Source of the DNA: Branchiostoma floridae
Taxonomy: Eukaryota; Chordata; Leptocardii; Amphioxiformes; Branchiostomatidae
NCBI RefSeq assembly: GCF_000003815.2
Contig: NC_049982.1
Coordinates: 3,927,259 to 3,991,258, forward strand
DNA length: 64,000 nt
Reading direction: 5' to 3'
Part shown: piece by piece, positions 25,428 to 50,619 of the stretch
Layout: every line of letters begins with the position of its first letter
Numbering within the stretch: position 1 is the first letter of the stretch
Notes under the pieces: model-generated
The model's database searches: none
What the model was told of the DNA's origin: nothing
The model's input: only the letters and a program-made list of their open reading frames with translations
Translations under genes and position numbers: made by a program

Positions 25428-25790
25428 CTAACCGATATGATACACTATAGGAACCGCTAGGACTATGGCCCCCCGGTACACCACCAGACACAGCCTGTCC
25501 AGCACGTGGGACAACATCATCCAATCACTCTCCGTCTGTACGATGCTGTACAAATCGTCCTTTCTACAATGCAAACCAGTCTAGCTTCTCCCAAATTACT
25601 ACTCATCAATGACTTAACCGATGTGGTACACTATGGGAACCGCCAGGACTATGGTCCCCCGGTACACCACCAGACACAGCCTGTCCAGCACGTGGGACAA
25701 CATCATCCAATCACTCTCCGTCTGTACGATGCTGTACAAATCGTCCTTTCTGCAATGCAAACTAGTCTAGCTTCTCCGATAACTACAACT
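25428..25790 (-). repeat. Two echoes of the channel's TM4-encoding exon end, stops included
   Basis: Two tandem copies (about 25428-25600 and 25614-25790) lie just beyond the true stop codon at 25811. On the minus strand the nearer one still reads TESDWMMLSHVLDRLCLVVY, then an Arg in place of Leu, and ends VYHIG and stop like the parent. Most differences from the parent exon are at third positions. Confidence 0.85.
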
Positions 25791-25810
25791 CATCAACGCT
25801 CGTCGTTGAA

Positions 25811-28800
25811 TTAACCGATATGGTACACTATGGGAACCGCTAGAAATATGGTCCCCAAATACACCACCAGGCACAGCCTGTCCAGCACGTGGGACAATAT
25901 CATCCAGTCGCTCTCGGTCTGCACCAGGCTGTTCTGCTCGTCCTGCCTCTTCAGCCAGCCGTTGAGGCTGTCCAGGCTGGTCCGGATGCCGTCCATGCTG
26001 TCCTTCAGCCCCCACATCACGGCGTTGATGCTGGCCAGGACACGCAGGTGGTTCCGGCGCCTGCAAAAGTAAAAAAACAACGAAGTGATATCGATCCAGC
26101 TTAGCTCACTGAACAGATTTTCTTCTACCGATCATGACAGAAAAGTTAGACGCAATGTATTTTTACAGGTTCCCTAGCTCATACAGATTCCCCTAGTCTT
26201 TTATTTCTTAGAGCCATTTTTCACCGATTATGACAGAAAAGACAGACGCAAAATCACCCAATGTAACGTTTTGTTTTTACAGGTTCATTGTACCATGGTT
26301 GCACAATGAATCACTGCTAATTAACGACCCGCCATAAGGACTGCAACCCTTTCCGGTAGCATGTATGCTATGTCGGGTGAGCGTTCGGCTTCTAATTCCA
26401 TAGTAAGGGCCGCTAACCACTGGACTACACACGCTACCGGACTAGACTGGGCTACCCACACTGAACTATGCACGCTACTTGAATAGAGTCGACTACGCAT
26501 GCTACCTGCGGGGCATTTCCTCGTCGTCCTCCGCGATGTCCACGGGAGGCGGGAACGGCTGGTGGAGCGGGTTGAACCTCATGATCATGACGTCCTCGGT
26601 GAACGATGGCGTCTCTTTCTTCACGCTGCATCGGGAAATGTGCACAAAGATGATATCTGGTTGAGAGGGTTCTTCATTGTGTACAGCACGAGTATCATAA
26701 TTGTGTACAACATTAAGATATTGTCCGTGGCATCCGTTGGCCGACACTGCCTTTTCCTACATACTAACTATTCTGCCACCGGAGGATCTGCGTAGAGATT
26801 ATACAACATCTGGAATATACAGGCTATCGAATCCCGAAGCAAATCGTCTGATGGTTGCTGCAGTCTGTATCAAATTTGTGCAGGTGAAAAAATTGAAATT
26901 CTTACTCTCGTTTCTTGGTCATGACTCCCAGCAGCATCGCCATGGCCATTATTGTCTGTGATCATTACTCTTCCTCTGTACATGTATCAAAGTTGTGGAG
27001 GTAAAGAAAAAGAAACCTTACTCTCTTTTCTGTCTCCCAGTAACATCGCCGTGGCCATTATTATTCGTGATCATTATTATTCCTATCAAAGTTGTGGAGC
27101 TAAAAATGAAACCTTACTCTCTTTTCTTGGTCATGTCTTCCAGCAACATCGCCTTGGCCATTATTGTCTGTGATCATTACTCTTCCTCTGTACATGTATC
27201 AAAGTTGTGGAGGTAAAGAAAAAGAAACCTTACTCTCTTTTCTGTCTCCCAGTAACATCGCCGTGGCCATTATTATTCGTGATCATTATTATTCCTATCA
27301 AAGTTGTGGAGCTAAAAATGAAACCTTACTCTCTTTTCTTGGTCATGTCTCCCAGCAGCATCGCCATGGCCATTATTGTCTGTGATCATTACTCTTTCTC
27401 TGTACATGTATCAAAGTTGTGGAGCTAAAAAAGAAACCTTACTCTCGTTTCTTGGTCATGTCTCCCAGCAGCATCGCCATGGCCATTATTGTCTGTGATC
27501 ATTACTCTTTCTCTGTACATGTATCAAAGTTGTGGAGGTAAAGAAAAAGAAACCTTACTCTCTTTTCTTGGTCATGTCTCCCAGCAACATCGCCATGGCC
27601 ATGTACTTGAGGAAGAAGACCACAGCCCAGTCCGGCATGTCCCCCTCCTTCCCGGACAGCGCGATCACCACGGTGGTCAGCCACATGAACAGCCCCGCCA
27701 ACGTGATGGCCACGATGGTCAACACTCCTACATGGACGGAGAGACAATTATGTGTTAAACTATTCACCTTTTTGCTGATTATTTGAATGACTGTTTTGCT
27801 AGAAACTAAAATTAAGATATGATTGAACTATGACCTGTTTTACTGGAATATCATTATCTAATGATGGCGACAGTAGAGAGAGTAGGTCAGGAAGTGAGAG
27901 AGTGAGTGAGTGAGTGAGTGAGTGAGTGAGTGAGTGAGTGAGTCAACACTCCTACATAGACGGAGAGGGAAACTGCAGCTGTGAAAACTGTATTCTGTGT
28001 GGTCATCATGCCCCACAAACAAACTGACGTGCGTCTGTTGTTCATCATTTTGTTAAGTTATCAATTTGTTTGCCTGTTGTGAAGCTGGTGTATTACGCCG
28101 AAGGGTGGTTATACCGGTTGTATAGATACCGTTACAGATACGAAAACAATAAAACTTACCAAAGAGCGGGAAGTGCCCCGTTTTCGGCAGGTAGTCGCTG
28201 ATGACGACCAGCGACACGAACATGGAGAGCAGGATGCTCATGCCCCAGGACAGGCGGTCGCCCTTGTCGATGGGGATGAAGAAGGTGATGCACATGAGCA
28301 GGACCAGCACGATGGACGGAGAGACCGTGGTACACATGTGGAACGTCGGGTCACGCACCAGCTTCATGGACAAACACGCCTGGACACACGGGAATGAATG
28401 AATGGATGAATGGATGAATGAATGGATGGATGGTTTATTTGATCATTGTGATCATATAGAAAAAATGCATCGCAGCCATAGGCCCCCCAATAGATAGTAC
28501 TAGTATCTTAAAATAGCATCTGCGGTTTAAAGGGTTTCTGTGTATGTACAATACGTGGTCACAATTAGCATACAACTGATAAATGTTGTAAGCTTACAAT
28601 TGAAATGAGGTAGATCATAATTTGGTACATTGAGTCTTCGGACCACATCGACTCTGTGGAAGTGGTCAGCGTTTTAAACAGGGAACCCGACTTCTTTATG
28701 AAATGAGTGAAGGAAGTCATCTACGTCAGGGCACACCAACCTTCTTTTATTTCCGAAGACCTTTGACACAGTGCTGACGTCACGCGTGCCAGCAAATCAC

Positions 28801-31800
28801 GTGTCTATAACATTCGGGTCAGTGTCCAATAGCCATTATCTGGGACTATTGGACACTGCTTGGTCCGCTTTTGTGCTGTTTTAGGCTGTGATACTGTCCT
28901 ATACAACCAGTAAATCTGCTTGGAGATTAACATGATGTCAAAACCGATTCACCGTACTTTGCGTCTGTCCGACACCGTCATGTTGACCGTGGCCGTCCAC
29001 TCGCCGCTCTTGAGAGTCCTGGGATCGTGGCAGCCGTGCACCTCGAAGAAAAATGAAGAAGACAGTTATTTACAGATCCGTGCTCATATGGGACAGTCTA
29101 CCACAGGATATACAGTCTGCCAGCAAGTGCAGGTTTAAACGGGAGCTCACTGTGTATGTAAATTAATAACTGTATCTGCATTTTATGTAACGTTACAATT
29201 TTAAGACCTCATACCTTCCGTACACAAAATAAAGCCCATACCAACAGGCTTTCGATCAGTCCTCAGATCCTTATCGAGTTATTACTAGTAGTTTGTCCTA
29301 TTTTTAATGTCCCAAAGTCCAGGAAGATTAGCTATCTACATTGTAATGCATGGCAGCTAATGGGATGAATAAAGTTTCCAAGTTACCTCGGCAGTCGTCG
29401 TGTTTCCCGAGCAGATGAGCTCCTCTTCGTTCTCCACGTCCGTGTGCAGGCACACCGGGCACGTGATGGTGTCGAACGGAAACAGGAAGTGGTTCAGGTC
29501 ACACGTGGTCACGATGATGTCCTCTGGAAAATTACATTCAGGATCAGCAGTAGGCAATTGTCAGTCTCTTGCCAGTAAGACTATGAATAGTACGTTTTCT
29601 ACACAATTTACTTATTTTTTGTACGCTTTGTACGTCTGAGGCAAGTTTCTGCTTTTCCAGGTCACATGTGGTCACGATAATATCCTCTGAAAAACCGAAG
29701 GAAAGCTATCAGAGGCCAATATTTAGCTCTTAGCTAAAGGATATGGACGAAGGACTGAAATCCCCTTTAGCTGCTGGCTAAAGAATAGCAGAGACATTTC
29801 CGTTTCAATAGCTGATGTTAACAAAGCAAATCAACAGTGCATCTGTTTGTGGTGCTGAAAACCGGATTGCTGTAATTTTTCTGATCTATTCAACTAATAC
29901 AATCTCTATAAAGCTACTGAAATGTTATACACTAACAACCCTCGGTGACGATATAGTAATCATATCTTACCGATTATCCATGTGACTTGGCCGGTGTTAA
30001 ACATGGTCAGGTCTGCCTTCGGAAACCCGCCGAAGTCCTTGTCCGCACTGGAACGGACACAGGACAACACAAATCATTCCGTTAGTATTCAAGACCTTGA
30101 TATATTGTGGCTGAGATGTTTTGTAGTTAGAACAAAGGAACCTGCGCAATCTCATTATTTTTACGTATGCTACGGTACCGTTTCGAACAAGGAGCCCCAC
30201 CGGATAGCGCACGGGTTGCACTTTCAGGCGTGATTCCTACGTGACCCCATGGGACAACCTGCGGCTACCAGTCTTTTTTAGGACACGGCAGGACCCTGGC
30301 CTTGTTTTTTCAATTCGCAGTTAAAATCTAACCGGGACCTGGCGACGCCGCGACCTACTCGTGAAAGCAACGAGAGGCACTCCCACCCCATCGTATCCTG
30401 CAGTCAATTGTGGCGTCGGAGATCGACGGGAGCTACACTACCTGTGTACATGGGACCGCAGCATTACGCTATAATAATAATATAGGGTGTATTTTGCAGC
30501 CAGTAGGTACCCAAAGTGTGGGTAATGAGGCTGTTTAACGTGGTCGAGGCACCTCCTCGAGTGCGGGACCCCTATGAATAGCGTATGGCGAGGACATAGT
30601 CTATACTACGCAAAATCTTAGCGGTAAAGCAGGTGCCATTCAGCTTTGCCTGCACCAGTGCAGTGTAACTATGAAGAAAGGCTATATCGAGTCTGGCCAT
30701 GAGTTACCTCCGTAGCAGTTTGAGTGTCGGTTTCCAGACAGTGTCGTGGTCAACCCGAACTTTGGAGACGCCGTAATGAAACACGTCCCAACTCAGCCGC
30801 TGGTCATGCCACGTCTGTTTAAACAAACAAACAAACAAACAAACAAACAAACACACAAATAAGCAAACACACGAGTAAGTGGTTGTGCTCATGAGCTTTG
30901 CGATACATGTAATCTTCAATTCACACACACACTTTTGTAGAAACAGTTTGTGTGTCCCACAGAATATATCTGCTCTCATCCCTGGAAAAGCCTATACTAA
31001 GGGCAGGAACTTAGAAACACGGCATGCAAACAATCAAATATTCCTTACCAATCCGACTCGAAAGGCTGTGGTGACGGTCTCTGTTGATTCGTCCTAAATG
31101 GAAAAATAACCAAACAACGTAGAAGCCAAAGTCATACCCAAAGTCAAGAAGCCAAATCGTCTCTAGATTACCATTTTACAATGCGTAAACAATCTTAATG
31201 ATTAAAGAAGTTATTACCATTTACAAATATTTCTTGACATAAAATTTACTATGTGCGGTTGTAGAGCAATCAAGTTCATATCAATACCTCGTCAACATAC
31301 TAAGGGTTAGGATTGATTTGATTTGATTTGATTCATTAAGATTGGAAACGGTACAATACAAGTGGGTCACAGGCAGCCGTATGCTGGTGTCGTGGCCCAC
31401 ACATCAATACATACATATAAATGGACACACTGGGAGACAGACAACAGAAAATCATTCTGTTGTATTCCGAATGAGCTCACCAGATTGATAATGCTGACAA
31501 TACTTCCCGCGATTGTGATGTTGACGACCCCCACCGTCGGGGAGAGGGTCGGGGAGTACTCGCCTTCGATGAACTTGTCGTTCAAGAGCCGCTCCCTCGA
31601 CTCCACTGGAGGAACGAAGGAAAAAAAATGCCCATCATTACCAGTATTTGATATCTTAAGGCCCGTTATGGACCCAGCGGGAGTATTCCGCGTATAGATG
31701 ACATAGCACGTCCTTCCATGATACTGACCAGGTACTGCGATTTGAAAAAAAAACGACTGCCGTGTTCACTGTGACGTCACCAAAGGAACTTCATTTGACT

Positions 31801-32214
31801 ACCTGGAGGCAGGACTCTGTGCAAACGTCTAAATTCAATGAATTATACTCATTGTGATTGGATGAAATGGTGTATGTTGATTGTTAGTTTGTTTTATTGC
31901 GATCTCCATTAGTGTACATCATAAAATCATGCCACTACTCTTCCTGGAGTCATAAATGATGTCATGAGGACTTCAAAACAGATAACAATTAAGTACCTTT
32001 GCATATCGGTGCCTCAGTGTCCCATATGTGGTTCCCCAGACACCTGGCCGCAGCCGACCCCAGCAGCGTGTACCCCTGCACGCAGCTGTACGACACCGTG
32101 TCTCCCCGGGAGTAGAACTGGCGCACAGGCTTCATCAGGACTCCCCGCTCCGACCCGCGGTCTCGGCACAGGAGCGACTCTGGAAGGGAAGGTGAATCAA
32201 TCAATCAATCAATT

Positions 32215-32246
<32 letters not shown>

Positions 32247-35200
32247 CGACTGTGTCTCTTGGGAAAAAAACTGTCGCACCGGCTTCATCAGAACACCGCG
32301 GTCTCGGCACAGCAGGTACTCTGTATTGGAGGAGCAATCAATCGATCGATCGATCAATTAAGCAATAAATCAATCAATCAATCAATCAACATTCTTTATT
32401 ACACAACAGTTGATCCAGCTGGGAGTAGAACTGTGGCACAGGCTTCATGAGAACACCCCGCTCCGACCCGCGGTCTCGGCACCGGAGGGACTCTGGGGGT
32501 AGGATCGATCAATCAATCAATCAATAATCAATTAATTATAAATCGATATATCGATCTTGCACAACAATTGTAACGGGTATACTGCATGGCGAATTATAGA
32601 GCAGTCCAATGTATAAGACATCAAGAATAATATCTACACATTAGCTTTTAAAAATTAATAAAGAGTTCGTTATAACTAAAGGTAGTCTGCTACTTTATCT
32701 AAATTATTCATTCTACAACAATGAGAATGAGTTACATGACAATGTTCTGGATACAAAGTTAGCATCAATTGTGAACGCCAAATATGTGTGTGTGTGTGTG
32801 TGTTTGTGTGCTTGAATGAGTCAGTAAACCTGTCAGTCAGTAAGTGAGAACTGCCATCACCATCACAAGGCTTGACGCTGCAGAACTCCCATCCCCCGGC
32901 CTGATCCACGTAGCACCAGGGCCTGTCCGTGCCGTCGGGGTTGCGGCAGTAGTTGTCCCGCAGGTGCGCCCAGGGGTACTGCTGCAGCTCCAGCGGCTTC
33001 TCCTCCCACCGGTAGCACGACTGGCCCGTCCCCGCCACGCTCTGCACGCCGCGGTAGTTCTCGCCGTTACCATGGTAACAGTCTGAGAGATACGTCGATG
33101 ACGGTTAGACATCCAGGTAGTAAGATGCGCCAAAAAGCAGTTACTCAAGCAACTGGGTATGTTTTTGGAAACATTTCCGGGACGTTTCAAACAATATCCG
33201 TTGTTTTTGTCAGTGACACGGACTAAGAGATAGACGTTGTTTACGAAAATAATTTCATCATGTTGGTAGAATATATGAATGAGTGAATGAAGACCTTTAT
33301 TGTACATGCATACCCACTGGGTTAGGTACAGGTCGCAACAAAAGATTACAGTTGAGATACATGAAATATATACAGTGTCAACCAACACAGATGAACTTTC
33401 AAAATGAACAGCCAAAGTGTTCCCCAAACCTGCAGGGGCTCCGCTCCAGCAGTTAGTGTTGGCGAAGGTCCTGCCGTCTGGACCTGGGACTAGCCAGGCT
33501 CCGCCCCACAGGCGCCCTCAAACGAGACGGGAGTTGTACCGACTTTCGACGAACTTTGACCCGATACGTGCATTAGCGGAAAATTCACTCAAAGAAAGGT
33601 AAAAAAAAAAATGTTCCCCAACCTGCAGGTGCTCCGCTCCAGCAGTCAGTGTTGACGAATGTCCCGCAGTCCGGCACCTGTGACCAGCCTGTCTCCGTGC
33701 CGCAGGCTCCTTTCAGCTCCTCGCACCAGGACCGGCACGGGGGGTCCCGAGTGACGGAGGAACATGGGGGGACTAGCAGGTAACACACAAAATCTTGGAT
33801 CTGAGAAAGTAGAGAGATGAAAAAGTAAACCTATGTGTAGATATGAATTCAATCGTTACTCTAACTAGCGGGGAAAAGAGAGAGAGGGTCATCGAGTGGG
33901 AATTTGTGAGTGAGTGACATTGAGTGAAGAACCACCAGGTAACACAAGAAATCTTGGATCTGAGAATTTAAGGAAATTAACGAATAAAACAAAGGTTACG
34001 CCAAATAAAGCACGGATAGGCTTATGTCACATTTCTAAACCGGGGCCCGGCCGGTTTGTAATGACCTTTACGTATAAATTTATCTATTTTCGTTTCCACA
34101 AACAGCCCGGCCGGGCCCAGGGTTGGAAATGTAACGAATGAAATGCAATAAATTAATGAAATCCAATAAATCAGCACGAGTCAGTAGAGTTTGCTAGTCC
34201 ATGTGCCAAAACTAACTTGTTGGTGACAGGTTTTACTAGAAAGCTGCTTTATTCCGAGAAACCCTTCCCAGTTTGTGACATCTGCCTCCGACAGGTGATG
34301 GAGAAAGTTTGGGAAGGCGGTGTACTCCTGCGGGGAGCACATGTCGCGGAGAGCCCCCTCAGGGATAGTACGGCACTCTGCGTAGAACAACAAACAAACA
34401 AACAAACAAACAAACAACGCATTAGTTCTCAAAGTGTTTAAATCTATGGATGATTGAGATAATTTAGTAATTACTAATACAAAATACCACAACTTGAGCT
34501 ATCATTGGAATGTTGATACTGTGACAGCAAAGTTTTCTAGACAGTCATCATCAGCCTCCACCAGGCACGCAGAATAAACCTAGGAGAAACTTATACTGCT
34601 GTATTAGTTTATTTGGTTGGTATTATTTTCTTCCCGCTGTAGTATTGTTATCTATTTTTGGATCCGTGGTTTATGTTTATGTTTTGTCTCAGTTATTGTC
34701 TCCATCTCTATTGTCATTATGTATTCTTCTGTTATTTCTGTTTATTTGAAATGCAATAAAAAAAAAAAAAAAAAAAAAAAAAAACCTAGGAGAAACTTGA
34801 TGAAGTGCATAAATTATCAGAAGATTCAGTCCCTAGAAAACCACAAATATGAATGGCAAATGAACCCATTGGTAGTTTAACTTCTCTACCAAAATAATTC
34901 TCCTATAGCTAGTGTAGTTAGTATGGTAGAAACTATGTCATCACAGAATACAGCCCTCGAGCCTCTTGTAGATAACTTACGCTTTCTCTTTATAAAAAAT
35001 ATCAGAAACACGATGCATGTACAAGGGTTACTGTTGACAATACGAGAATAATATGTGTTAGGGAGTGTGACTCGCAAAAACTAAACAGCAAAAAGATACC
35101 TTAGTACTATTATAGATGCGTTACTACTCACCACAGACAGCCTGGTCGCTCCCGTCCCAACACTGAGCAACACCCTGACACATCAGGCTCAGCGGGACGC

Positions 35201-38200
35201 ACTTCTTTACGTCTCTGCACGAGAAGTCTGTCCCTGTGCATCGTGCTGATGGCGACAAAGACATGTCACTGATAAAGGTAAAGGTTACGCACTCATCTTC
35301 AGCTGAGGTGAGGAATGATGCTTTCAACCGAAAATAATTTCATCAGGTTGGAAGTTATAGGATGCTGGAGTTTTCTTTTAAACAGTCAATAATCAGGCAA
35401 TGTCTCTCACCTACTTACGTTTCGATGTCTCGCAGAGTTCGAGGCCATGGATCAATGGAATTCAGACAGATTGCTGCGAGAGGCAATGTGTGCAGACCAG
35501 GCACACAGGGCAACACACAAACATACAAACAAACAAACAAACCGTGTTGACAAATCTTACCTTTTGGTGCACTTGTGTACTTTGCAGATATGACGGCCGT
35601 TTTGTCCGTTAATGACGTCACGTGTGACGTAGAAGCGACGTAGACCCCGTACACTACCACTGTAAGCGCGGAACTGTTGGAGTATATCGGGCTGGTGGGG
35701 CCGCTGCCACAGAAGGTACCTTCAGCGGTAATAACATGGGTAATGGTCGACATGACTCATGTGCGTGCCACAAGGTGGAGGTAGACGTCTTGGCGCAAAG
35801 TGATCGACTTCAAATAAATTATGCAACCCGACTTTGGGCAACATGTTTTGCATTTTCAAAAGTTTAAATAGTGCGATAAAAGACGGTAACAACGCCTATG
35901 ATAGTCTCCATCTCGGCGCGCTGACGTTTATATTGATTAGGAGGGGAGAGCGTAGATTCAAGAGTTTCAACATGGGGCGCTTTATAATATGCTGAGAAGA
36001 TCCTTTTTGGGGGCCTAGACGACTTCCCCGACAATAGAGAACTTCAGGCCCATGTTAAAAATCTACAACTAGGGCCTCTCCCAGAAAGATAAAGTTTAGC
36101 ACATATGGAAAGTTGTGAAGTAGAACAACCTTTGAAGAGAAAGAGGTGATGCTGTGAGGGATTATTTTGTGTCGCTAAACGAATATGTAGCATTCCCAAT
36201 GTTTATGCTCACTCTCTATCAGATTCGCTGACAGAATAATACATCTCAAATTGTTCATACTAACAACAGGATGATGAAAAACAAATGTTTGTCATGCCAT
36301 ATCCTGATTTTTTGTTGGAAAGTAACTTTGCGGAACATTTTAATTACCTTTGACTGTGTATTGTCCATCCGGCCAGTTCCCTTCGATGACGTGTATCCGG
36401 TCCTCCGAAGATTATCTTTGACATCATTAGATATATTCTTATGTGTCTTGTGTTCCATGGGCAAGATGATTTGTTTGTTTGTTTGTTTGTTTGTTTTGAT
36501 TAGTCTTTTATTTGATATGTTTGTCAGTTTGTCGGCTTATTTAACAACCCGGTGATTTTTTCAGATCATCATCATCATCATCCGGGCGTGCTGGTTGCAC
36601 GGACGGCCATGACTCTCTTCCTCCATCCTTCCCTATCCCTAGCCTTGGGCAGTTCTTCAGCCGAGCAGCCAGAATCATCAAAGATGATGTACATATGTTT
36701 TGCGTGGTCTTGCGAGATCTTGCGAACTCTTAATATAACGAATTGCAGGGAACCTTATAAATTTCAATATGATTCAATATAGGTTTCTTTGCCGATGGCT
36801 GGTCTGTTGTGGCAAGTCACATTACAATGATCAAGCCATCATACAGTCTCTAGAAACGTCGGTAGAACATTAAGATAAGGCGTACCTACTAAGGAAACTG
36901 AAATTGAATTGATTTAACAACGTGATGTAAATATTTACATATTTCAAAATAACGATAACTATCAGTGTCAGCGCGGACGTATATCGTCATTAATCATCTG
37001 GACATACCGGTAACTTCCACTCGCAGTGGTAGTCACGGGTGTTGCTGTAAGAGAAGTCACCGTCCAACTCCAAACTGCAACTCTCTGTTTCAGACTCGTC
37101 CGAAGGTGTTCCAATGTCTGAAAGCAGGAACTTAAACAGGTTATGCGAAATCCCATCAAAGTTATTTGCATATCCAAAATTGGAACCATGTACAGAAAAG
37201 CTAGAAATGAAATTCCTTTTAGATACAAGCCTTGGGTCTGGTGTGCCATATTCTACTGATCGGCAATCGCACTGCAATATCGCCACGACCTGATTGGATT
37301 TGCGAGACCCCTGATGATATAATGCAAAATCTAAATGTATGTCTGAAAAGACGGTAAGACACAAAAAGCATAAAAAGTTCGTTTTTATCTATGAAATTTG
37401 TTAAACGATTTGTCAAATATTAGACAGGGCGCGGGGTGGTTGCAAAGAGCACCACCCACAGGAATGGGGGTATTACATAGGATCCTAGACACGGCAAGCA
37501 ATACTGATAGAAACGACGAAAACCCTACTCACTGTTGCAGAGCGGAACGCTACAGTACTGTGCCTCCAGAAAGCCCATGGTGTTCCGCACAAAGCACATT
37601 GGTTTGTCCTGGTAGGCGTACACCTCTGCATGGGGGCTGGCCAGCACGCGACAGAAGTTCCCCTCAAGGTTGTACTCACCCATGGGATCCGCATCCCGGA
37701 AACCCCCTAAAGACTCCTTCAGTGCTGAGACCTAGGAAAACAACATTGTAACAGGTCATATTACCAAACAAGCTTAAAATGTAAACATGATATCTAGAAT
37801 GTTTAACTCATCAAAAATACTCCGATGTTTCTTATACTTTTTCTGGTATCAGATCATTGCTGTGTAGTTTTGGAACGAACCATTTGTACATATCATGTAT
37901 TATGCTGCATGATAAAAGAAAAGTCACTACCTCGTTGACAACTGCAGTCCACTCCTCGCAGGCCTGACCCAACTCTGTCATGTCCCAGGTACCACGGTAG
38001 TTGTACCCACGCCCGTAGTAGCAGTCTGTGGTGACATAAACATGTTTACGGAAAGTTGAAAAGATTTTTACTTGACTCAATTTTGTTTCCAAGAGTAACA
38101 GAACAGATATGCAGATAGGTGCATTTAAACCTGCACAAGTGACCACATGACTGTACAGGGCCCACATAGACGATCGGTGGCTCCATAGGCTATTTTGCTG

Positions 38201-41200
38201 ACTGAAACAATGTGTATCTATAGGCCACCTCTTTTCTGTTATCGATTTCATCAAGTCCTTTTGAGTAATCGATTCTTCAATATGCGCAGATTTGACTGTC
38301 TATAATTGAAAATTATGCAGACGCAAGTATTTGAGGTCTGCCAGGAGAAAAATGCTTATGAAAATTGCACCATCTTCACAGTAACAACGCTAGTAGGAAA
38401 CGTTCACGGATCGACCTACCGGAAAGCGGGAATTCACAGATGAACTTCATGTTGGCGTCACACGAGGACGCCTCCCATGCCGTGCCCGGGCTACTGTCGT
38501 CTGCCAAGTTGAACGAGGCGCAGCTCCTTCCGGACGAGTGTTTCGGTTCGAGAATCTTCCAGCTGTGGAAGGTGCCGAACCTGAAATATGCATGTAACAG
38601 GTTATCCATTGTACTCGAAACTGACTGAAATATGTGTGTACCTGAAATATGTACTGTTTTATCGACTGAAACATTTATGTACTCACTGAGTACTCAATGA
38701 CATTGCACTTAAAGCTGGAAATAAACTCGTTAAAAAGAAAACAAGTGTCCATGCAAGTGAAAATAGTTCGATAGTAAAAGTGAAACGTGGTATCCAGTGA
38801 CTGTAGTTTTCAACTTGGTAAATGATGCCAGTCTACCACACTAGTGTCACTTAGTCACTTCTTGAATACGGAAAAAAATATTTGACGGATATTATTTGGA
38901 AAAAAAAAGGTGCCGAACCTGCTTCCATCTGTCCACGTCCAGGAATCCGGTCCCCCTGCTTCTGGACCCACCAGGCCGAACCGTACAGGCTCATTTGCAT
39001 GTTCGGGATCATTCAGGATGAGGTTGAAGATGAACTGGTTGATGTCCCGGTTTTGGGGCAGGGCCAGACTCCCGCCCAAGGATTCGCACATTCCCAGGGA
39101 CTCGTCGTAGGTTCGCTTTTCTTCAAAGATCTTGTAGAGCTTGCCATTACACTGCTGGTAGCCACTCAGTTGCTCTAACGAACACAAAATATAAAAAAGG
39201 CCATGAGAAAAGATTTGAGTGTTGATATATCCATATAAAAAGTCATGTCTGTTTATCTACCTATCTATATCTATATATCTACATATCTATCTATCTATCC
39301 AAGATGAATCTTTCTGCGATGGATATAAGGTTTTCAAGCCTAGCAGAGCAACATTGCAGAATGGTTCTCTCTCATCTCCCTGCAAGAAAGACTGACCCTG
39401 GCGAGGGATAGACAGGCCTGGAGACAGCTCTCTATCTTCATATATTTCTAGGTAGATAGGTAGGTATATATAAGGCTTTCTTCGAGTTTTCTTCACCTTC
39501 GATTCGCTCAGGTTCAAAACACTCCGTGACTGGCAGATCGTCGCAGTAACCGCTTTTGAACAGGACCTTCTCCTCTTCCAAAAGGGTGTCACAGTAGATG
39601 TTGGTCTCTACGACATCTTTGCACCATGCCCAGCACACAGGCTCTGCTACTGAAATCGTACCTCTAATGCGGAAAGAAGAGTAAACGAGCCGTCAATATA
39701 CCGTGAACCAACTGGATGTACAGACAATTGTTTGCTGCATTTGCAAGGGATGTAGCCCTGGTCAGGCTCCCGGGAGCCGCAGGGAATACCAGGTTATACA
39801 CACAAAAAAAGCCTGTGAACTGCCCGACAGAACCTCCTTTTCAATTGGGACCGTAGCATTTAGCGCGTAGAATGGTGGGAAATATTTGTGGGGTACGAGG
39901 GCTAATCTTCAAGCAGATCCTACGGTAGTATAAGATAGTATCAAAGCCTGGCATAGGGGTTTAGCCGACCTCCGGTAGCCAATGCTCACACCTAGGTCAT
40001 CTAAACTCATTTGCCGGCTTTTGATACATTTACAAAGTATCTTTTAGCTACCATAGGATGTGCTTGGAGATGAGGCCTGACCATTGTTCAACGTACCTAT
40101 CTACGCAGTTCGGCGCCAGCATCGCACAGGCAAACGCCAGGCTCTCGGCGTGGCAGGTCGAGGCGGGCTGGCTGCGGAGGGTGCTGGTGGCGTTATACTC
40201 GGCGGAAGCGAAGATCTCTTCGGCCGTGAAGTGCCCTGCGTGGTTGGGGAGGTAGACGGAGGCGGAGAATCCCCTGGCGGCGTTGCAGAACTGCAGCTCT
40301 GGTGGTACCTCTTGACATTCTGCGTCCAAAAGATAACAAAAGTATGAGCAGTATCATAGGTACCATGTAGCAACTCTCACATATGTCAACTGTGGATTCA
40401 AATGTCCATCATGTGGTATAGTATTATTCTTAGACTTAGCTGGTAGTTGTTGACAAGTTGCTATCAGGACTTAGTCTAGAAGATAATATTGTCTCCATTT
40501 TGTTCCCTGACAGAAACAGTCAACGGTGTTTATGTTTTAGAAAAATAAATTCATAATTTACTTGAATACAAATTCTTTTGTTTAGAAATAGATAGCTTAG
40601 CATAGGTGGTTGACAGAAGGAGTAGGACGAAACGTATATTGTCCCTGTCCCTTTGTCCGACTTTTTTCGTGGAAAGGAAACCGCTTACCGTAAGGACACT
40701 GCCCCTCCGTCAACGTGACGTCATCCAGGGCAATGTCTCCAAATTGATTATCACCCCTCGTTGCTTCAAACGACAGCTGAAATAAAGGTGCAAAATATAC
40801 TTTTTCGATTTTTGACAGAATATGAGAGAGTGGTGCCTATCCATTCACGACAGGTACATTGTAACATGAGCTGACAGGTAAAATGTCAGGTGTAACATGA
40901 GTTCAGGTAAAATGTCAGGTGAAACATGAGTTCAGGTAAAATGTCAGGTGTAACATGAGTTCAGGTAAAATGTCAGGTGTAACATGAGTTCAGGTAAAAT
41001 GTCAGGTGTAACATGAGTTCAGGTAAAATGTCAGGTGTAACATGAGTTCAGGTAAAATGTCAGGTGAAACATGAGTTCAGGTAAAATGTCAGGTGTAACA
41101 TGAGTTCAGGTAAAACGTCAGGTGTAACATGAGTTCAGGTAAAATGTCAGGTGTAACATAAGTTCAGGTAAAATGTCAGGTGTTACATGAGTTCAGGTAA

Positions 41201-43831
41201 AATGTCAGGTGTAACATAAGTTCAGGTAAAATGTCAGGTGTAACATGAGTTCAGGTAAAATGTCAGGTGTAACATGAGCTGACAGGTAAAATGTCAGGTG
41301 TAACATGAGTTCAGTTAAAATGTCAGGTGTAACATAAGTTCAGGTAAAATGTCAAGTGTAACATGAGCTGACAGGTAAAATGACAGGTGTAACATGAGCT
41401 GACAGGTAAAATGTCAGGTGTACATGTAGTTAATTAAATAGTGTTATATTGAAGGGTTGACTCCAGATATCCAGATTGACCAGCAACTGTAAGCCCTCAC
41501 ACGTTTCCAGGCCGCACAAGCAAAACATGGCAAGACTTATCACCATCGATTGAAATAAGGCTGAAGTTGAAACATAAAGAACTTGCTGCTGTTGCAAGTA
41601 TTTTTCCGTTACCTTGAAAGATGGGCTGAAGGTAAGAAACGTTACTGAGCCCAGCTGCCACGCGTCGCCCTGGTCTCCCTGCCGTTGCCAAAGGACCAGT
41701 TCAGCGTCTTCGTCGAGAATTGCCGTGAGTGTGCCCACGCCGGACCCGTACATGTGGTAGTACCACATCAGACACTGCTGCCCGGGGGGTCTGGTGATGG
41801 CTGTGGAGTTTAGATGGGCCCTCCAGCCGCCCCTGGCTGATGAAGCTTCGATGTAGATGTAGGAGCCTTATCAAATGGAACAAAGCATGATCATTATCTG
41901 TCTTTATCTATATATATTGTGTTTGCCTGTGTGTGTCTTTATGTACCTGTGCTACAAAAACCATGCGTGCTACCACCCTCATTTAATAAGAACAAACTAA
42001 AATTACTGCAGAGATCATTTTCAAATTCTTCTTTTTTTGTTATCGGAGATACATGTATTTCATTCCCCTACCAGACCCTGTAGTCCTGTCCCCCGGTGGG
42101 CCCGTGGACTGCGAGCTGGTGGGACCGGAGATGTGTGTCCAGTCGAAATCGTCGTCAGGGCTCTGGAAGAAGCTGCAGAGGTTCACGTCGAAGTCACAGT
42201 CCGCCTCCGCGTCGCCTGGCAGAGGGTCGATATCAATGTGATCAATACAGGGCAGGTTTAAATAAGTATGTCTTTCTCTCCTATTCCGTAGTCTCTACCA
42301 GACTGACTACGCTGGCTATTATTACAGGAATAAGAATTTACCGGGGGAGTTTTGCAAACAGAGGAGTTGGTCGGCCAGTTGTTTGGTTGGTCGGTCGGCC
42401 GTTGGTCCAGACCTCTCCGGAGAAGAAACATGCACCTACATGTAAGCGTGGACTGAATTCCTTTGTCAATTTCCCGATTTTTTGGCCGAATTCTACGATC
42501 CCTGTCACCTCGTAGGAAGGCCTGATGGAAGCTACCAAGTCCGTTCATCTTGATAAAAAATCATTGGAGTATCTATTTACTGAATGAATTCTTCCCTCTA
42601 GACCAGCGTGTTTCTAGGACCAAACGAAAGATCAGTACACAGTCATTATCCGCCTTATTCTGAAAATACAGGTAAACTTTCAAGCAACCTAGTATGATGT
42701 TGTACACGTATCGATGTACATGTAGAAGACCTTACGAAAGCTGCTACATGTATGCTTTTGTTGTTTCAATAAAGATTACTCTGCGTATACACATAGGCAG
42801 CTGTAGCATGATTTATTCTGAAAACGCAAAGAAACTTTCCTGCTTACCTATAATCTTGTACACATGGTTTGCCTCCGGACCCCCTCTCCCGTTGTAGCCG
42901 CACCCAGTGGAGGCCCCGTACATCTGATATGTGACGTGTGAAAACAGCGACGTGCGGCACTCCCCGCCGTTCTGCACCGCAAACACAGTGAAGTTCTGTT
43001 CCAGTGCCACCGCGTAGCACTCGTCGACGGCGTCGGCTCGGGTCGCCGGATCCCTCGTCAGGGCCGCGTCCACACCTTCCCGGCTCGGCATGGCCACGAT
43101 GCTGCCTGTGTCGGCCCAACAACCGAGGGTACGGTATGGTTTCGGCGCTGAAAAACGGCAATATTGTTTCACTGTTATTTGTTAACAAGTAAGAGAACTG
43201 TTCTATCAAAAGCGAATTAAACTTGACAACTAGATTACGTAAAAGGCAAAGCCACAACGATGATAAAAAAAGGTGCATTTAAATAACGTACATTTTCAGA
43301 ACTACTCTTGCATTGCCCATTTCCTGAAAGGTGCTGATTGAGGAATCTTATGCATTATAATATGTGCGTCGAAGACATTTCAACAAGTTACCATTGTGTT
43401 CATTACAAGCTGTAATTATATACAGAGTTGCACAACTTAATCTAACAGTAGAATCTCTCCATATGATTAGGTCAAGTTTCCAAACCAGGACCCGGTTGGG
43501 CGGCTTTCGGGAACGAAAAAGTGTAATAGAAAAGACAGCAAGGCACACAAAGCGCAATTAAATTAGTCATAAGAATAACTCATGTATATTCCATGATAGA
43601 CACTTTCATCTTTCGTTTCCGCAAACATCCCGAACGGGCCCCGCTTTGGAAATGTGACTTAAGTATTAAGGTGTGACAAAGGGCTTTTAAAGAGACACAG
43701 TAAAAGTCCCTGTCGACTCACATGTCGGCCGTTCACACATGTAGTGTCTCTTCTGTCCACATGGCTTCCCGTGCCAGCCTCGGTTGTTTTGCCCCACGCA
43801 GTCTGAAGAGCTCTCGCCGTCAAACCAGTTC
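25811..43831 (-). CDS. Chimeric Cys-loop ligand-gated ion channel with eleven extracellular modules (5' end missing)
   Basis: Minus-strand exons, 5' to 3': 43722-43831, 42848-43147, 42072-42215, 41613-41866, 40689-40776, 40097-40319, 39497-39649, 38919-39174, 38420-38580, 37931-38025, 37533-37731, 37008-37117, 36348-36402, 35561-35719, 35132-35245, 34217-34377, 33623-33800, 32861-33082, 31997-32179, 31481-31605, 31049-31093, 30708-30814, 29971-30047, 29387-29523, 28958-29041, 28160-28379, 27559-27727, 26506-26625, 25811-26060. Order: C-type lectin end, WSC-like, MAM, Frizzled CRD, C-type lectin, kringle, CUB, LDLa, Frizzled CRD, kringle, Sushi, neurotransmitter-gated channel. It should be a plasma-membrane channel subunit with a very large ectodomain. 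Junction phases agree throughout except between the two exons of Frizzled domain 1. The CUB middle looks short, so a small exon may be missed there. Upstream exons for lectin domain 1 and the signal peptide were not found. Confidence 0.85.
26890..27540 (-). repeat. Array of echoes of the TM3 exon donor end
   Basis: About six copies of the last 40-50 bases of exon 27559-27727 with its GTAAGG donor (ACCTTACTCTC on the plus strand) recur downstream in the intron. They are spaced alternately about 96 and 116 bases apart, giving a 212-bp higher-order unit. Several still encode MLLGDMTKKR. Confidence 0.8.
27893..27975. repeat. (GTGA)n microsatellite and echo of TM3 exon acceptor end
   Basis: A GAGT/GTGA tract is followed by GTCAACACTCCTACATAGACGG, nearly identical to the acceptor end of the TM3 exon at 27717-27742. 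So this exon is echoed on both sides. Confidence 0.75.
29645..29693 (-). repeat. Echo of the Cys-loop exon acceptor end
   Basis: Plus-strand CAGGTCACATGTGGTCACGAT and CCTCTGAAAA match the 5' end of exon 29387-29523 and its acceptor at 29486-29530, with a few substitutions. Confidence 0.75.
31997..32179 (-). other. Sushi (CCP) domain exon
   Basis: Encodes a single complement-control-protein module: cysteines in LLCRDR, SYSCVQGY, ARCLG and APIC, with the conserved Tyr/Gly after the second Cys and a Trp (HIWDTE) before the last. It is bounded by phase-1 introns and directly precedes the channel domain. Confidence 0.85.
32255..32505 (-). repeat. Two echoes of the Sushi exon acceptor end
   Basis: Plus-strand copies containing GGCTTCAT(C/G)AGAACACC and CGGTCTCGGCAC occur at about 32262-32325 and 32411-32500. 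They match 32110-32182 and are separated by ATCA/ATCG simple repeats. Confidence 0.8.
32861..33082 (-). other. Kringle domain 2
   Basis: One exon encodes a complete kringle with six cysteines: CYHGNGENYRG at the start, SCYRWEEK, YCRNPDG, PWCYV, FCSVKPC at the end. All consensus aromatic residues are present. Phase-1 introns bound it. Confidence 0.95.
33421..33515 (-). repeat. Echo of the Frizzled-2 second exon donor end
   Basis: The plus-strand block CCTGCAGGGGCTCCGCTCCAGCAG onward resembles the donor end of exon 33623-33800 (broken here to respect length). The coding frame in the echo is disrupted by a stop and a shift. Confidence 0.75.
33921..33968 (-). repeat. Echo of the Frizzled-2 second exon acceptor end
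   Basis: CAGGTAACACAAGAAATCTTGG and following bases match the acceptor end of exon 33623-33800 at 33777-33808. The exon is thus echoed on both sides. Confidence 0.75.
34026..34135. mobile_element. MITE family B, short copy
   Basis: GTCACATTTCTAAACCGGGG at the left and GGTTGGAAATGTAAC at the right are inverted, with the CCCGGCCGGG core on both arms. Confidence 0.7.
34576..34798 (+). mobile_element. Recent poly(A) retroposon with 17-bp target-site duplication
   Basis: AAACCTAGGAGAAACTT occurs at 34576-34592 and again at 34782-34798. Between them lies about 190 bases ending in AATAAA (34755-34760) and an uninterrupted poly(A) tract. This is the signature of LINE-mediated insertion of a transcript 3' end. 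The source transcript was not identified. Confidence 0.85.
35132..35245 (-). other. LDL-receptor class A module
   Basis: One exon with six cysteines: RCTGTDFSC, CVPLSLMC, QCWDGSDQAVC. The DGSD calcium-binding motif is intact. Phase-1 introns on both sides. Confidence 0.9.
35561..37117 (-). other. CUB domain (three exons)
   Basis: Exons 37008-37117 (CSLELDGDFSYSNTRDYHCEW), 36348-36402 (DRIHVIEGNWPDGQY) and 35561-35719 (GTFCGSGPTSPIYSNSSALTV). The middle exon has a weak acceptor, and about 20 residues usually found between its parts and the first exon are not seen, so a small exon may be missing. Phases agree at the last junction. Confidence 0.7.
36548..36690 (-). mobile_element. Possible LINE open-reading-frame remnant
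   Basis: On the minus strand a short frame reads AEELPKARDREGWRKRVMAV, which resembles the C-terminal W-rich end of non-LTR retrotransposon polyproteins. This rests on pattern memory only. Confidence 0.35.
37533..38025 (-). other. Kringle domain 1, divergent (two exons)
   Basis: Exons 37931-38025 (CYYGRGYNYRGTW, CEEW) and 37533-37731 (NFCRV, PMCFV, YCSVPLC). The first half follows the kringle consensus closely. The centre is longer and less regular than kringle 2. Internal intron phase 0, outer introns phase 1. Confidence 0.8.
38420..39174 (-). other. C-type lectin domain 2 (two exons)
   Basis: Exons 38919-39174 and 38420-38580. The order is CNGKLYKIFEEKRTYDESLGMC, split here as CNGKLYK, then MCESLGG; RFGLVGPE; SWTWTDGS; then SWKILEP; SCASFN; AWEASSC and KFICEF. 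The WxWxDGS element is intact. The usual EPN/QPD sugar-specificity triplet is not obvious. The intron between the exons is flanked by a 15-bp direct repeat. Confidence 0.85.
39497..40319 (-). other. Frizzled-type cysteine-rich domain 1 (two exons)
   Basis: Exons 40097-40319 (ECQEVPPELQFC, SVYLPNHAGH, FACAMLAPNC) and about 39497-39649 (VCWAWCKDV, YCDDLP, ECFEPE). Ten-cysteine pattern and YLPN core fit the family. The first exon ends in phase 2 while the best acceptor of the second needs phase 1. Either the boundary is different or a tiny exon lies between. Confidence 0.75.
40689..42215 (-). other. MAM domain (three exons)
   Basis: Exons 42072-42215 (CDFDVNLCSFFQ), 41613-41866 (GSYIYIEASSA, CLMWYYHMYG, GTLTAIL, TFSPSF) and 40689-40776 (FGDIALDDVTL, GQC). 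All conserved MAM elements are present in order. Confidence 0.9.
40862..41425. repeat. 29-bp minisatellite, about 19 copies
   Basis: Unit close to ATGAGTTCAGGTAAAATGTC plus AGGTGTAAC, repeated head to tail with few substitutions inside a MAM-domain intron. A GAGCTGACAGG variant recurs at both ends of the array. Confidence 0.95.
42848..43147 (-). other. WSC-like / apple-like module
   Basis: One exon with TLGCWAD at the start, DECYAVA and FAVQNGGEC in the middle, and CGYNGRGGPEANHVYKI at the end. The GC-D, FA-Q-GGEC and GxGGxxxNxVY pattern fits the WSC family of putative carbohydrate-binding modules. Phase-1 introns on both sides. Confidence 0.65.
43471..43658. mobile_element. MITE family B, diverged copy
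   Basis: GTCAAGTTTCCAAACCAGGA at the left and GCTTTGGAAATGTGAC at the right, inverted, with CCGGTTGGG / CCGAACGGG inner arms. Confidence 0.6.
43722..43831 (-). other. C-type lectin domain 1, last exon only
   Basis: Encodes NWFDGESSSDCVGQ, WHGKPCGQKRHYMCE, the C-terminal half of a C-type lectin fold. Starts in phase 2 and ends in phase 1, so at least one earlier exon is required. It was not recognised between here and the next gene. Confidence 0.7.
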
Positions 43832-44229
43832 CTAGGTCAAGTCAAGAAGGGGTTCACTTGTGTATTGAAGATGCATGCACTGAACTTATATTTACCTTTG
43901 CCAGAATGGCTAAGGTTATGTTTTAGGCTTGTGAGTCTGTGTGTCTGTGTGTGTGTTAACAGCATAACTCGAGAAGCCTTTGATGGATCCCAATGATATT
44001 TAGTAGGTGGGTAGAGGTCGGGAAAACAAAGGTCAAGTTCGATAATGGGCCCCCTAGCGGCTTGCTAAGGTACTGCAGCAGAACCTCAATTTTTTATATC
44101 TCGTGTTCTGGACATGCTGTGGTCATGATTTTTGACTGGTAGATAGCCCTTGGGGCAGAGAGTAAGTGCAGTGAGTTTGGACCCCCTAGCGGCTTGTTTG
44201 GAACTGCAGGCGCCGGTTTCCTTTCAAAC

Positions 44230-45065
44230 TTTGGACGAGAATAACTCTACAACGTGTTGACGGATCGTCATGATTTTTGGTATGTAGATAGAATGAGTGA
44301 TGACTTACATAATGATATACTAATTTTGCAAATCAACAGCTGATTTGCATAATTAATGAGAAAAATTTATAAATCCACTGCATTCCATGATAGGACTTTC
44401 AAACTTGTTACATATGTAGCTGGGAAGGAGAGAAAAGTCGATGGATATCAATTATGCAAATGATGGCCTCATTTGCATAATTAATGAGAAAATAAGAACA
44501 TGTTGACAGATCATCATGTCTTTTGGTATGTAGGTAGCGTAAATGAAGACCTACATAATGAGATACCAATTATGCAAATCAACAGCTAATTTGCATAATT
44601 AATGAGGATATTTTATAAATTCAAACTACATTCCACAATAGGACTTTAAAACTTGTCACATATGTAGCTGAGAAAGAGAGAAATGTCAATAAATGTTTAT
44701 CATGCAAATGATGATCTCATTTGCATAATTAATGAGAAAATATGAACGTGTTGAAGGATCGTCATGATTTTTGGCATGTAGATAGCCTAAGTGAAGACTT
44801 ATATAATGTGATACTTATTATGCAAATTAACAGCTAATTTGCATAATTAATGAGGAAAAGTTCATAAATCCACTGCATTCCATTATAGTACTTTCATCAA
44901 AGTTGTCACATATGTAACTGAGAAAAAGGGAAGAGAAAAAGAGGTGTATTTAAAGACTTTGAAAGAGAATAAGTCAAGAATGGATCAAAGGATCATCATG
45001 ATTTTTGGTATGCTGATAGATATCGTAAATTGTAACTTGAGATCTAATTTGCATAATCAATGCCG
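44230..45065. repeat. About 245-bp tandem repeat rich in octamer motifs
   Basis: Units begin near GATCGTCATGATTTTTGG at about 44264, 44509 (diverged), 44758 and 44991. ATTTGCAT occurs at 44343, 44471, 44589, 44719, 44837 and 45047, usually followed by AATTAAT. The reverse octamer ATGCAAAT occurs at 44454, 44572, 44702 and 44820. Confidence 0.8.
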
Positions 45066-46879
45066 CAATTTTATAAACCAACTCCAAGCATACAATTATA
45101 AAGAAAATGAAATGAGTAATGCATTTGTCTACAGACATCATTCTACATAACAAACCTGGTTTATTTGGCAAAGGTATGTGTTCGTGGAACTCTAGTTGTA
45201 CATATATTTGATATGGCACGTCCCCACCATACATTTGTGATATTTTTAGCTCAGGAACGCTGCCAGACGATGACAAATCACAAGGGGCATTTCTAAATGT
45301 CATGGAAAGTAGAATCGTATATGGCATTAATAATTGCATATGGCCAGTTTTCAATGTTGATTCACTGAATGCTTGTCAACTTCAAGAGGTGCAGTATTTG
45401 TCTCAAGTAGTAATTGATGGCATTTTCCATCAAGACGTCCATGTATTTATTGTTGTCCTATTTAGCGATAGCTTGCTAGTATTCTAAACATTTCAGACAA
45501 CATAGAAAAGTTAAAGCTAAAGCATTTCCTTGGAAAGGATAGGCATATCTAGTGCCTAAGAATTGTGCGACAATTAGAACTGGTACTGTTATTCATAGTT
45601 AATGAACCACCCCAACTCTTACCTCAAACCTAGATATTCTCATTTGAATAAACCCATCATCTTAGATACACGAGTATGGATGTTTTTTTATATCTCAACC
45701 ACCCGAGACAATCTTACGTACGTAAAAGTGAGTGAAGAAAAAATTGTAATTGAAGGAGACCTAAGCTACTAGACCTAATAAGCTCTGTAGTCAAAGTTAT
45801 CCGTATCTTGCGTTGTCTGTATATTAACCTAGTTAGAAATACAAACACCAACGTAGTGCTGTTATTGTGTATTGAATTGTTACCAGGGCTGGCTCTTGAT
45901 AATAACCTCCGGCTAGTTGGGTACCCTTAGCAGTATTTCTCACTATACAGCCGAATAATCAAATCTAATCAAATCAAATCAAGTCGTTTTGTCGAATCAA
46001 ATAGCCTGGTAAGCAAATGTTGCAAAAATGTACAGATTTTTACTTGCCATTAAAATCAGGTAGAACGTAGTGTATTCAGCCTGGTTTTATACCCATGTCA
46101 AAAAATACCATTCAATATTACAACAAAACACGATACAAGACACGTTCACTACACCAGACAAGTTTCATCATATGAACCACTCCAGTAGCGCAGCCGATGG
46201 GCGTTATGTGGAAATAAGTCAGGAGGTAAGAGTTCTGTCGGAGTCAGGAAGCAAAAGATATCCAGAGCCTTGGGGAACCGCCCGGTCTACCTCACATGAC
46301 GCATGACACGCGCTGCGTTATCCATACCACAGAATATTTTTTTATTTTTCCTTCGAAATCATGAATATAGTATCACAGAGTGGTAACGCAATAAATGCTG
46401 ACAGCTAGTATGAGAAAATTAGTCAACGCAATAAAGAGTTATTCACAACAAAGCTCCTAGCTATTCGCAATGTACTTTAAAAAACTTTGGTTAATTCTCT
46501 TAAACTTTGCAGTCACATGTGTAATAGTATATCAGCGGTGGTTCAGATCATGTTTTTTGCGATGAAGCCTGCCAAACGCTAATAAAGTTCTTTTGACATT
46601 TTGACTTCAGTTTTGACTGAGTTCACTGTCTCTAAATATGCATTGACGTTGTCAAGACTTTTCCCGTGAACTTCATTCCCATCTCATACCTTATTCATGC
46701 TACAGCACATATATTAGCACGTATACTTCTTCAAATACTCGAAAGACAGACAGACACCGCTGCACTGACGTGACGTCGATCCGCTGCTAGTCTCATCATG
46801 CTACAAGGTTAGTGCCAAGTGTTCTCAAAAATCATGGTGTATTTAACGATCATGTGTGGTGACATCGGAGAGTACTTTG
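45066..46879. other. Spacer between channel gene and LRR cluster
   Basis: No gene is supported. A block at about 46165-46330 (GCAGCCGATGGGCGTTATGTGG and GTCAGGAAGC) is homologous to the flanks following each LRR gene (about 50650, 55200 and 59270). The tandem unit therefore once extended this far left. Confidence 0.55.
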
Positions 46880-47000
46880 AACCTTTATTGAGACTTAATT
46901 GAGACTTTATTGAGGCTTTGCGACATGGATATGGACAGAACCCCATAATTTACTGAGACTTTATTCAGAACTTATTGAGACTTTATTGAGACTTTGAGAC
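46880..47000 (+). repeat. Tandem duplication in the leader of LRR gene 1
   Basis: TTGAGACTTTATTGAG units and the block GACATGGATATGGACAGAACCCCA are each present twice (about 46923 and 46998). The upstream ATG copy is followed by a stop-containing frame. Confidence 0.75.
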
Positions 47001-49862: not shown

Positions 49863-50619
49863 AAACGGCCAGGGCACCTAGTGAGGGAGTAAAAATATAT
49901 ATTATGTCAAGAACAGTATTGTCAAACACCTACGTGCCACGGGACATCGACGAAAAGAGCGTTCCAAACGTAAGAAGACAAAGATAGCTCTCCATCCTTC
50001 CTAACTAGTATAGGCCTATTTCAGAAAAAGCACCCAAAATACAGCATACCTTGGACCTTCGATTCCAATATTACCAAATACAATTCGGTCTTGGCAGACC
50101 CCAGCAAAAAGCACCCCAAAATATCTTGACTGACTAAACCAGCATCTGCGTAGTATCCTTATAGCAATATCTTGGATTCGGTTCATTTCATTATATTAAG
50201 GCATCAGATTGAGCAAAACAACACACATACGCCAATGTGGTTAGTTCAATAAGTGTGATCTGGGTGCACTGAATCGGTGCTGGTTAAAAATGGATGGGTT
50301 GAAATAACAGGGTTACATGTAATTTTTCAAGATATAAACCCGGCGACCAGACTATCAGATTTGATGAATTCACACCAGAAAGGACCCCCGCTCTTTTTAA
50401 CGTGTGGCTCTTTTCAATCACGGGAGAATCACACATTCAGCGTCCTATCAGAGGGACCGTCCTAACTGAAGCTAGGATCTATTTTCATCATAGATATGTG
50501 AGTTAAGTCGTGTAAAATGCACAAGATCGGAAGCGAATTCGAACACAGAACCTCTTTGTTATGGGTCAAACACCCTGCCGTTACACAAGACCACACATTG
50601 TTTCGAAATCATCAATAAA
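49863..50619 (+). pseudogene. Decayed tail repeats and shared polyadenylation site after LRR gene 1
   Basis: Sequence to about 50110 is collinear with the LRR gene 2 tail (SNTYVPR, then RRRS/LPNT-type repeats) but carries stops and shifts, so gene 1 has lost the distal tail. AATAAA at 50614-50619, inside CATCAATAAAACAA, is conserved after all three genes. Confidence 0.7.

Follow-up and report, generated by a model that had tools for sequence, protein, structure and literature searches.

A stretch of the Branchiostoma floridae genome 64,000 nucleotides long (the window, by which we mean the whole stretch analysed; C4:3927259-3991258 in a searched genome of 513 Mb and 431 contigs) holds exons for a series of adhesive extracellular modules and, on the same strand, exons for a Cys-loop ion channel subunit. 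This arrangement raises two questions: (i) whether the tower of modules and the channel form one gene or are two neighbors read together; and (ii) what a channel subunit with a tower on its N-terminus would do. An earlier note on the same DNA had proposed a single fused gene with eleven modules ahead of the channel.

Pfam scans and an exon search placed a tower and channel gene on the minus strand, running from 43831 to 25811 through phase-compatible exons. From N- to C-terminus the modules are the last part of a first C-type lectin, a WSC-like domain, MAM, Frizzled (Fz), lectin, kringle, CUB, LDLa, Fz, kringle, Sushi, and then the Cys-loop subunit (Table 1). The exon search was a dynamic programming procedure combining splice scores, codon scores and phase matching. 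Under the phase constraint it selected 25 exons that form a stop-free chain between 43831 and a stop codon at 25811, in agreement with the consistent joining of phases claimed before; the codon scores were trained on 18 of the 25 chain exons, and the chain is to be read as support, not as independent proof of coding. The chain omitted the CUB exons and a 45-nt exon of the ligand-binding domain (LBD), both of which were recovered by comparison with two paralogs. The small CUB exon that the earlier note suspected had been missed is among them; its donor is strong and its acceptor weak, and its phases match those of the neighboring exons. As joined, the CUB domain scores 15.6 bits, under the Pfam cut-off of 21.4, and about 20 of its residues are unplaced. 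The 45-nt exon was also picked unaided by the exon search on the C2 paralog, and the phases of the first five LBD exons are identical; we take its position to match that of the short third exon found in nAChR genes.

Table 1. Exons of the tower and channel gene in the window, listed from the 5' end (positions in the window; phase given as entry>exit).
Feature	Position	Strand	Phase	Evidence
C-type lectin 1, last part only	43722..43831	-	2>1	Lectin_C 16.4 bits, cut-off 22.6
WSC-like domain exon	42848..43147	-	1>1	Pfam WSC 16.4 bits, cut-off 27.8
MAM exon 1	42072..42215	-	1>1	Pfam scan, exon search
MAM exon 2	41613..41866	-	1>0	Pfam MAM 62 bits, E 7.6e-17
MAM exon 3	40689..40776	-	0>1	Pfam scan, exon search
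Fz domain 1, exon 1	40097..40319	-	1>2	Joined Fz1 36.2 bits, cut-off 32.1
Fz domain 1, exon 2	39497..39663	-	2>1	Exon search, joined Pfam; no single-exon Pfam match
C-type lectin 2, exon 1	38919..39174	-	1>2	Joined 39.2 bits, cut-off 22.6
C-type lectin 2, exon 2	38420..38580	-	2>1	Exon search, joined Pfam
Kringle 1, exon 1	37931..38025	-	1>0	Joined 39.5 bits, cut-off 34.3
Kringle 1, exon 2	37533..37731	-	0>1	Exon search, joined Pfam
CUB first part	37008..37117	-	1>0	Same-phase counterpart exon in C2 paralog
CUB small exon	~36348..36402	-	0>1	Conserved in both closest paralogs
CUB last part	35561..35719	-	1>1	Paralog comparison
LDL receptor class A	35132..35245	-	1>1	Pfam 30.3 bits, E 4.9e-7
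Fz domain 2, exon 1	34217..34377	-	1>0	Joined Fz2 39.9 bits, cut-off 32.1; no single-exon Pfam match
Fz domain 2, exon 2	33623..33800	-	0>1	Single-exon Pfam E 7e-7
Kringle 2	32861..33082	-	1>1	Pfam 71.8 bits, E 6e-20
Sushi/CCP	31997..32179	-	1>1	Pfam 32.7 bits, E 9.7e-8
LBD exon 1	31481..31605	-	1>0	Exon search, joined Pfam
LBD exon 2, 45 nt	31049..31093	-	0>0	Conserved 45-nt exon in both closest paralogs
LBD exon 3	30708..30814	-	0>2	Exon search, joined Pfam
LBD exon 4	29971..30047	-	2>1	Exon search, paralog comparison
LBD exon 5 with Cys-loop C-x13-C-x2-C	29387..29523	-	1>0	Pfam scan, motif search
LBD exon 6	28958..29041	-	0>0	Exon search
TM1 and pore helix TM2	28160..28379	-	0>1	Exon search, joined Pfam
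TM3	27559..27727	-	1>2	Exon search, paralog comparison
TM3-TM4 loop	26506..26625	-	2>2	Exon search; splice sites weak
Intracellular helix, TM4, stop codon	25811..26060	-		Exon search, paralog comparison

The modules named in the earlier note are present on the minus strand: MAM, two Fz, lectin, two kringles, LDLa, Sushi, the LBD and the membrane region pass Pfam. A domain search of the joined exons, which the note had suggested, put the LBD, the membrane region, Fz1, Fz2, lectin 2 and kringle 1 above their cut-offs. Counting the lectin-1 fragment and the WSC-like domain, there are eleven modules, as the note had it; these two and the joined CUB lie under the Pfam cut-offs. The lectin-1 fragment has a paralog counterpart (E 6.5e-5), and the WSC-like exon is 50 and 41% identical to exons of two paralogs; searched against the PDB, this domain gave no convincing match (best E 0.96). 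By eye, Fz domain 1 has ten cysteines, and no modules were seen on the plus strand in open frames of at least 38 aa starting at 18000-44600.

The window also contains several repeats and partial exon copies. A 29-base satellite of 19 copies occupies 40860-41431, within the intron that separates MAM exon 2 from MAM exon 3. Tandem 186-base repeats (2.6 copies, 25429-25932) contain the end of the TM4 exon, and beyond the stop codon of the gene there are two further partial TM4 copies; these extra copies are possibly alternative last exons or signs of decay. Tandem 212/113-base repeats at 26868-27602 hold pieces of the TM3 exon, and introns carry a partial copy of the Cys-loop exon (29547-29705) and a partial start of the Sushi exon (32244-32512). 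Past the 5' end of the channel gene, three long leucine-rich-repeat open frames (954, 1068 and 808 aa) lie on the plus strand at 46998-58670.

We compared the window with four paralogous loci, of which one shares its contig at a distance of 15 Mb and the other three lie on different contigs. They were read by local phmmer with the window modules, by comparison and partly with Pfam. The C4 paralog (C4:18.90M) has five EGFs, lectin, WSC-like, MAM, Fz, lectin, kringle, CUB, LDLa, Fz and channel, its last Fz exon and LBD exon 1 being too close together to accommodate another kringle and a Sushi. The C2 paralog (C2:14.71M) has CUB and LDLa repeats, followed by Fz, kringle, CUB, LDLa, Fz, kringle, Sushi and channel. 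At C230:275k a signal-peptide-like ORF, recognized by eye, precedes CUB (64.7 bits), LDLa (34.7), Fz (first half 38.9), kringle (52.5), Sushi (21.2, cut-off 20.7) and channel. C16:2.73M has WSC-like (21.9, under cut-off), kringle (91.6) and LDLa (39.9), followed by Fz (first half weakly), kringle and Sushi, these three by phmmer only, and by the channel; no CUB was seen there by phmmer or Pfam. LDLa-Fz-kringle-Sushi-channel is thus common to C2, C230, C16 and the window, and the outer modules differ. Over the matched exon the channels at C230 and C16 are 46% and 51% identical to that of the window. The exon search returned 3 exons on L043 and missed several module exons on the C4 and C2 paralogs; the modules of these loci come from phmmer, comparison and Pfam. 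In the C4 paralog the first half of Fz, EGF and the channel membrane region passed Pfam, and half-exons of kringle, LDLa, WSC, the second half of Fz and lectin often fell under the cut-off. At L045, around 1662-3580, open frames that by eye look like the endonuclease or reverse transcriptase of a retroelement lie between the WSC-like and kringle exons.

The channel protein had 108 exon matches in the genome, from which we picked 67 TM1-TM2 loci by hand, window included. We left out rows matching other exons, rows of 19-31% identity that resemble ordinary channels, and two single loci, C7:6334279 (33%) and C13:10766061 (43%). An Fz exon lies upstream on the same strand within 20 kb (at 4.5-11.6 kb) in at least 19 of the 67 channel loci, a lower bound because the Fz list comprised the best 150 of 230 candidates and did not include the window's own Fz exons. 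By comparison, Fz exons lie downstream on the same strand at 4/67 loci and on the opposite strand, on either side, at none; in 2000 random shifts the mean was 0.04 and the maximum 2. The corresponding kringle counts were at least 6/67 upstream and 1 downstream on the same strand, and 0 upstream and 1 downstream on the opposite strand (shifted controls: mean 0.108, maximum 2), a weak test and a lower bound, as the list comprised the best 150 of 528 candidates. The upstream Fz match is absent at 48/67 channel loci when the best 150 of 230 Fz candidates are considered, and some channel loci may be without a tower. One divergent member, L011 (C19:1374369), with 37% identity over one exon and an FPVD Cys-loop, has an Fz exon 4.5 kb upstream. 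Elsewhere, Fz exons are densely clustered at C4:10.19-10.23M, C3:2.02-2.07M, C3:12.86-12.88M and C290, away from all of the 67 channel loci, and are perhaps a separate expanded Fz family. LBD-like exons scattered over C5:24.39-24.72M and many single sites, whose matches cover only about positions 45-120 of the Pfam model, are perhaps a further divergent channel family.

The order of the shared modules is kept in four paralogs, which would not be expected of chance neighbors. Together with the same-strand upstream Fz exons in the family, this order leads us to conclude from the genomic sequence that tower and channel are one fused gene, as the earlier note had it; a single transcript would span both. 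Three points go beyond that note: the family is large, the residues of the transmitter site have been lost, and no 5' end was found for the window copy.

The second question concerns the channel itself. In the joined exons both of its parts exceeded their Pfam cut-offs (LBD, PF02931, 91.2 bits against 26; four-helix membrane region, PF02932, 60.4 bits against 28.1), and a motif search found a C-x13-C loop with FPxD in the window exon. The best PDB match was muscle AChR alpha (E 1.3e-29); among the 60 PDB rows listed, the top 18 were nAChR subunits (one a chimera), followed by 5-HT3A. TM2 of the window has Asp at -1', a basic residue at 0' and Leu at 9'. The gene resembles nAChR subunits, the muscle type most closely, in its LBD and four-helix region, its FPFD Cys-loop, its acidic -1' and its Leu 9', but differs in its N-terminal tower, in its transmitter site and in an extra cysteine after the Cys-loop. 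In a by-eye reading of the PDB alignment, the loop A Tyr, the loop B Trp and the loop C Cys pair and Tyr are absent in the window; the loop B Trp is kept in 8/8 ordinary channel loci. For a wider sample we took 30 loci fetched by the channel search, which came to 27 distinct loci after removal of three extra windows of the same gene. Position -1' is acidic in 25 of the 26 TM stretches found, and 9' is Leu in all 26. The pattern C-x13-C-x2-C, with the extra cysteine three residues on, occurs in 24/24 Cys-loops found among the 27 and in 0/8 ordinary channel loci. Median dN/dS over 65 codons of TM1-TM2 was 0.109 in group B (54/55 pairs usable), 0.195 in group C (36/36) and 0.272 in group A (5/6), to which the window belongs. 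In a tree of 36 rows on a 73-column alignment, a branch with 100/100 support separated 28 rows of the window's channel type, chosen by channel and not by tower row by row, from 8 ordinary rows, which are a partial sample. The locus probably encodes a cation-selective channel subunit of nicotinic descent. Judged by residues, the window channel has lost the transmitter-site aromatics, and the pore is conserved in nearly all loci sampled.

We propose that the product would be a subunit of a pentameric channel of nicotinic receptor descent, with the adhesive tower on its N-terminus. The N-terminus of the pLGIC fold sits on top, away from the membrane, so a tower could stand on each subunit. The transmitter pocket would be dismantled in the tower-bearing subunit, and the tower would bind matrix, glycans or partner proteins, which would hold the subunit in place and cluster the channel; it may additionally bias channel opening. 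We regard such a built-in anchor and clustering tower, with a possible influence on opening, on a cation-channel subunit of nicotinic descent as the most likely reading and hold it with moderate confidence, because the pocket aromatics are gone while the pore is under constraint. The fused order in the gene and its paralogs, the family, the conserved pore and the lost aromatic agonist residues can all be read from the DNA, and a single transcript, a pentamer, its conductance, clustering and any gating are predicted on that basis.

Several other readings were weighed. One, compatible with the rest, is that the family is real but the window copy is decaying and truncated at its 5' end. The earlier note's tower from lectin to channel stands for the modules through TM4; toward the N-terminus, the window yielded no more of lectin 1 than its end (E 3e-5 with the paralog query). 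The EGFs and the opening half of lectin 1 from the C4 paralog, searched against the window, gave nothing better than E 0.15 upstream of that fragment, and no signal peptide was recognized by eye among open frames of at least 30 aa at 43850-47200. With neither a recognized signal peptide nor a first half of lectin 1, the window copy may be 5'-truncated, although the located exons are intact. A 5' end not found in the stretches searched and partial duplicates of the TM3, TM4, Sushi and Cys-loop exons close by would suit decay, but the chosen exons from 43831 to 25811 are open and phase-compatible, and against the C4 paralog TM1-TM2 has a dN of 0.155 and a dS of 0.57. We consider decay unlikely, if the strongest of the competing readings.

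Slightly less probable, in our estimate, is that the tower gates the pore directly, so that binding to or pulling on the modules opens an adhesion- or matrix-gated cation channel. Loss of the agonist aromatics beside a still conserved pore fits this idea, but is equally expected for a structural subunit in a heteromer. The broader form of the idea, that amphioxus has dozens of nicotinic-derived cation channels which abandoned transmitter gating and are opened by ligands of exchangeable towers, a repertoire built by exon shuffling for recognition of cells, matrix or microbes, we offer only tentatively. An accessory, non-gating subunit or adhesion receptor, which would anchor ordinary nAChR subunits or have a pore that no longer conducts, seems to us more doubtful again: it would account for the lost aromatic site, and many ordinary Cys-loop LBD matches in the same genome could be its partners, but retention of the acidic -1', the basic 0' and Leu 9' at almost every locus examined, together with the low TM1-TM2 dN/dS, points to a conducting pore. 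Two adjoining genes, one for an adhesive protein and one for a channel, misread as one, the case that by the earlier note would undo the fusion, we reject as very improbable, given the order in the paralogs, the phases and the absence of any suitable start from Sushi to LBD exon 1: a methionine-led hydrophobic stretch does overlap, in a different frame, the end of the Sushi exon, but it has no usable donor, no ATG-led piece at 32050-31606 reaches a donor in the phase needed by LBD exon 1, LBD exon 1 has no methionine upstream in its reading frame, and at C230 the signal-peptide-like ORF stands ahead of the CUB.

The anchoring and clustering role that we favor has partial counterparts among known proteins. 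DeCLIC, a bacterial pLGIC, likewise has extra domains ahead of its subunit, but there they are two beta-rich lobes and here eleven animal extracellular modules. LEV-10 and NETO (CUB, LDLa) and LEV-9 (CCP) bring CUB, LDLa and Sushi/CCP modules to ion channels, but as separate proteins acting in trans, whereas the window gene has such modules, CUB being located in part, fused ahead of the subunit. LEV-10 has one LDLa and five CUB domains and LEV-9 eight CCP domains; LEV-9, LEV-10 and the worm acetylcholine receptor need one another for clustering, and the LDLa of LEV-10 is dispensable (PMC9083331). By analogy, the tower may drive clustering of its channel as LEV-10 and LEV-9 do in the worm. ROR and non-mammalian MuSK also combine Fz and kringle, and ROR2 was among the kringle matches. 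In ROR, Fz and kringle stand in that domain order. These proteins are single-pass receptor kinases, unlike the window gene, where Fz2 and kringle 2 lead into Sushi and the LBD; a Pfam scan of the window exons found no tyrosine kinase. In non-mammalian MuSK the kringle lies between Fz and kinase (PMC3927609).

Lancelet-specific nAChR expansions have been described, including a clade of nine and four CHRNA1-like genes, and the sections of that account used here make no mention of towers (PMC6354393). In the literature searched, mostly open-access and without bioRxiv preprints, we found no report of such a fusion of tower and channel; database gene models for tower channels may well exist already. 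A 2022 PNAS paper states that N-terminal domains before the binding domain have not been observed in any eukaryotic pentameric channel (PMC9897478). The amphioxus family of tower channels runs against that statement on eukaryotic homologs. Module kinds that elsewhere sit on separate AChR-clustering proteins (CUB, LDLa, CCP, Fz and kringle) are here in one chain, which makes the interplay of clustering scaffold and channel accessible to tests on a single polypeptide. Gating by the tower, if it occurs, would be a new mode of opening for a Cys-loop channel.
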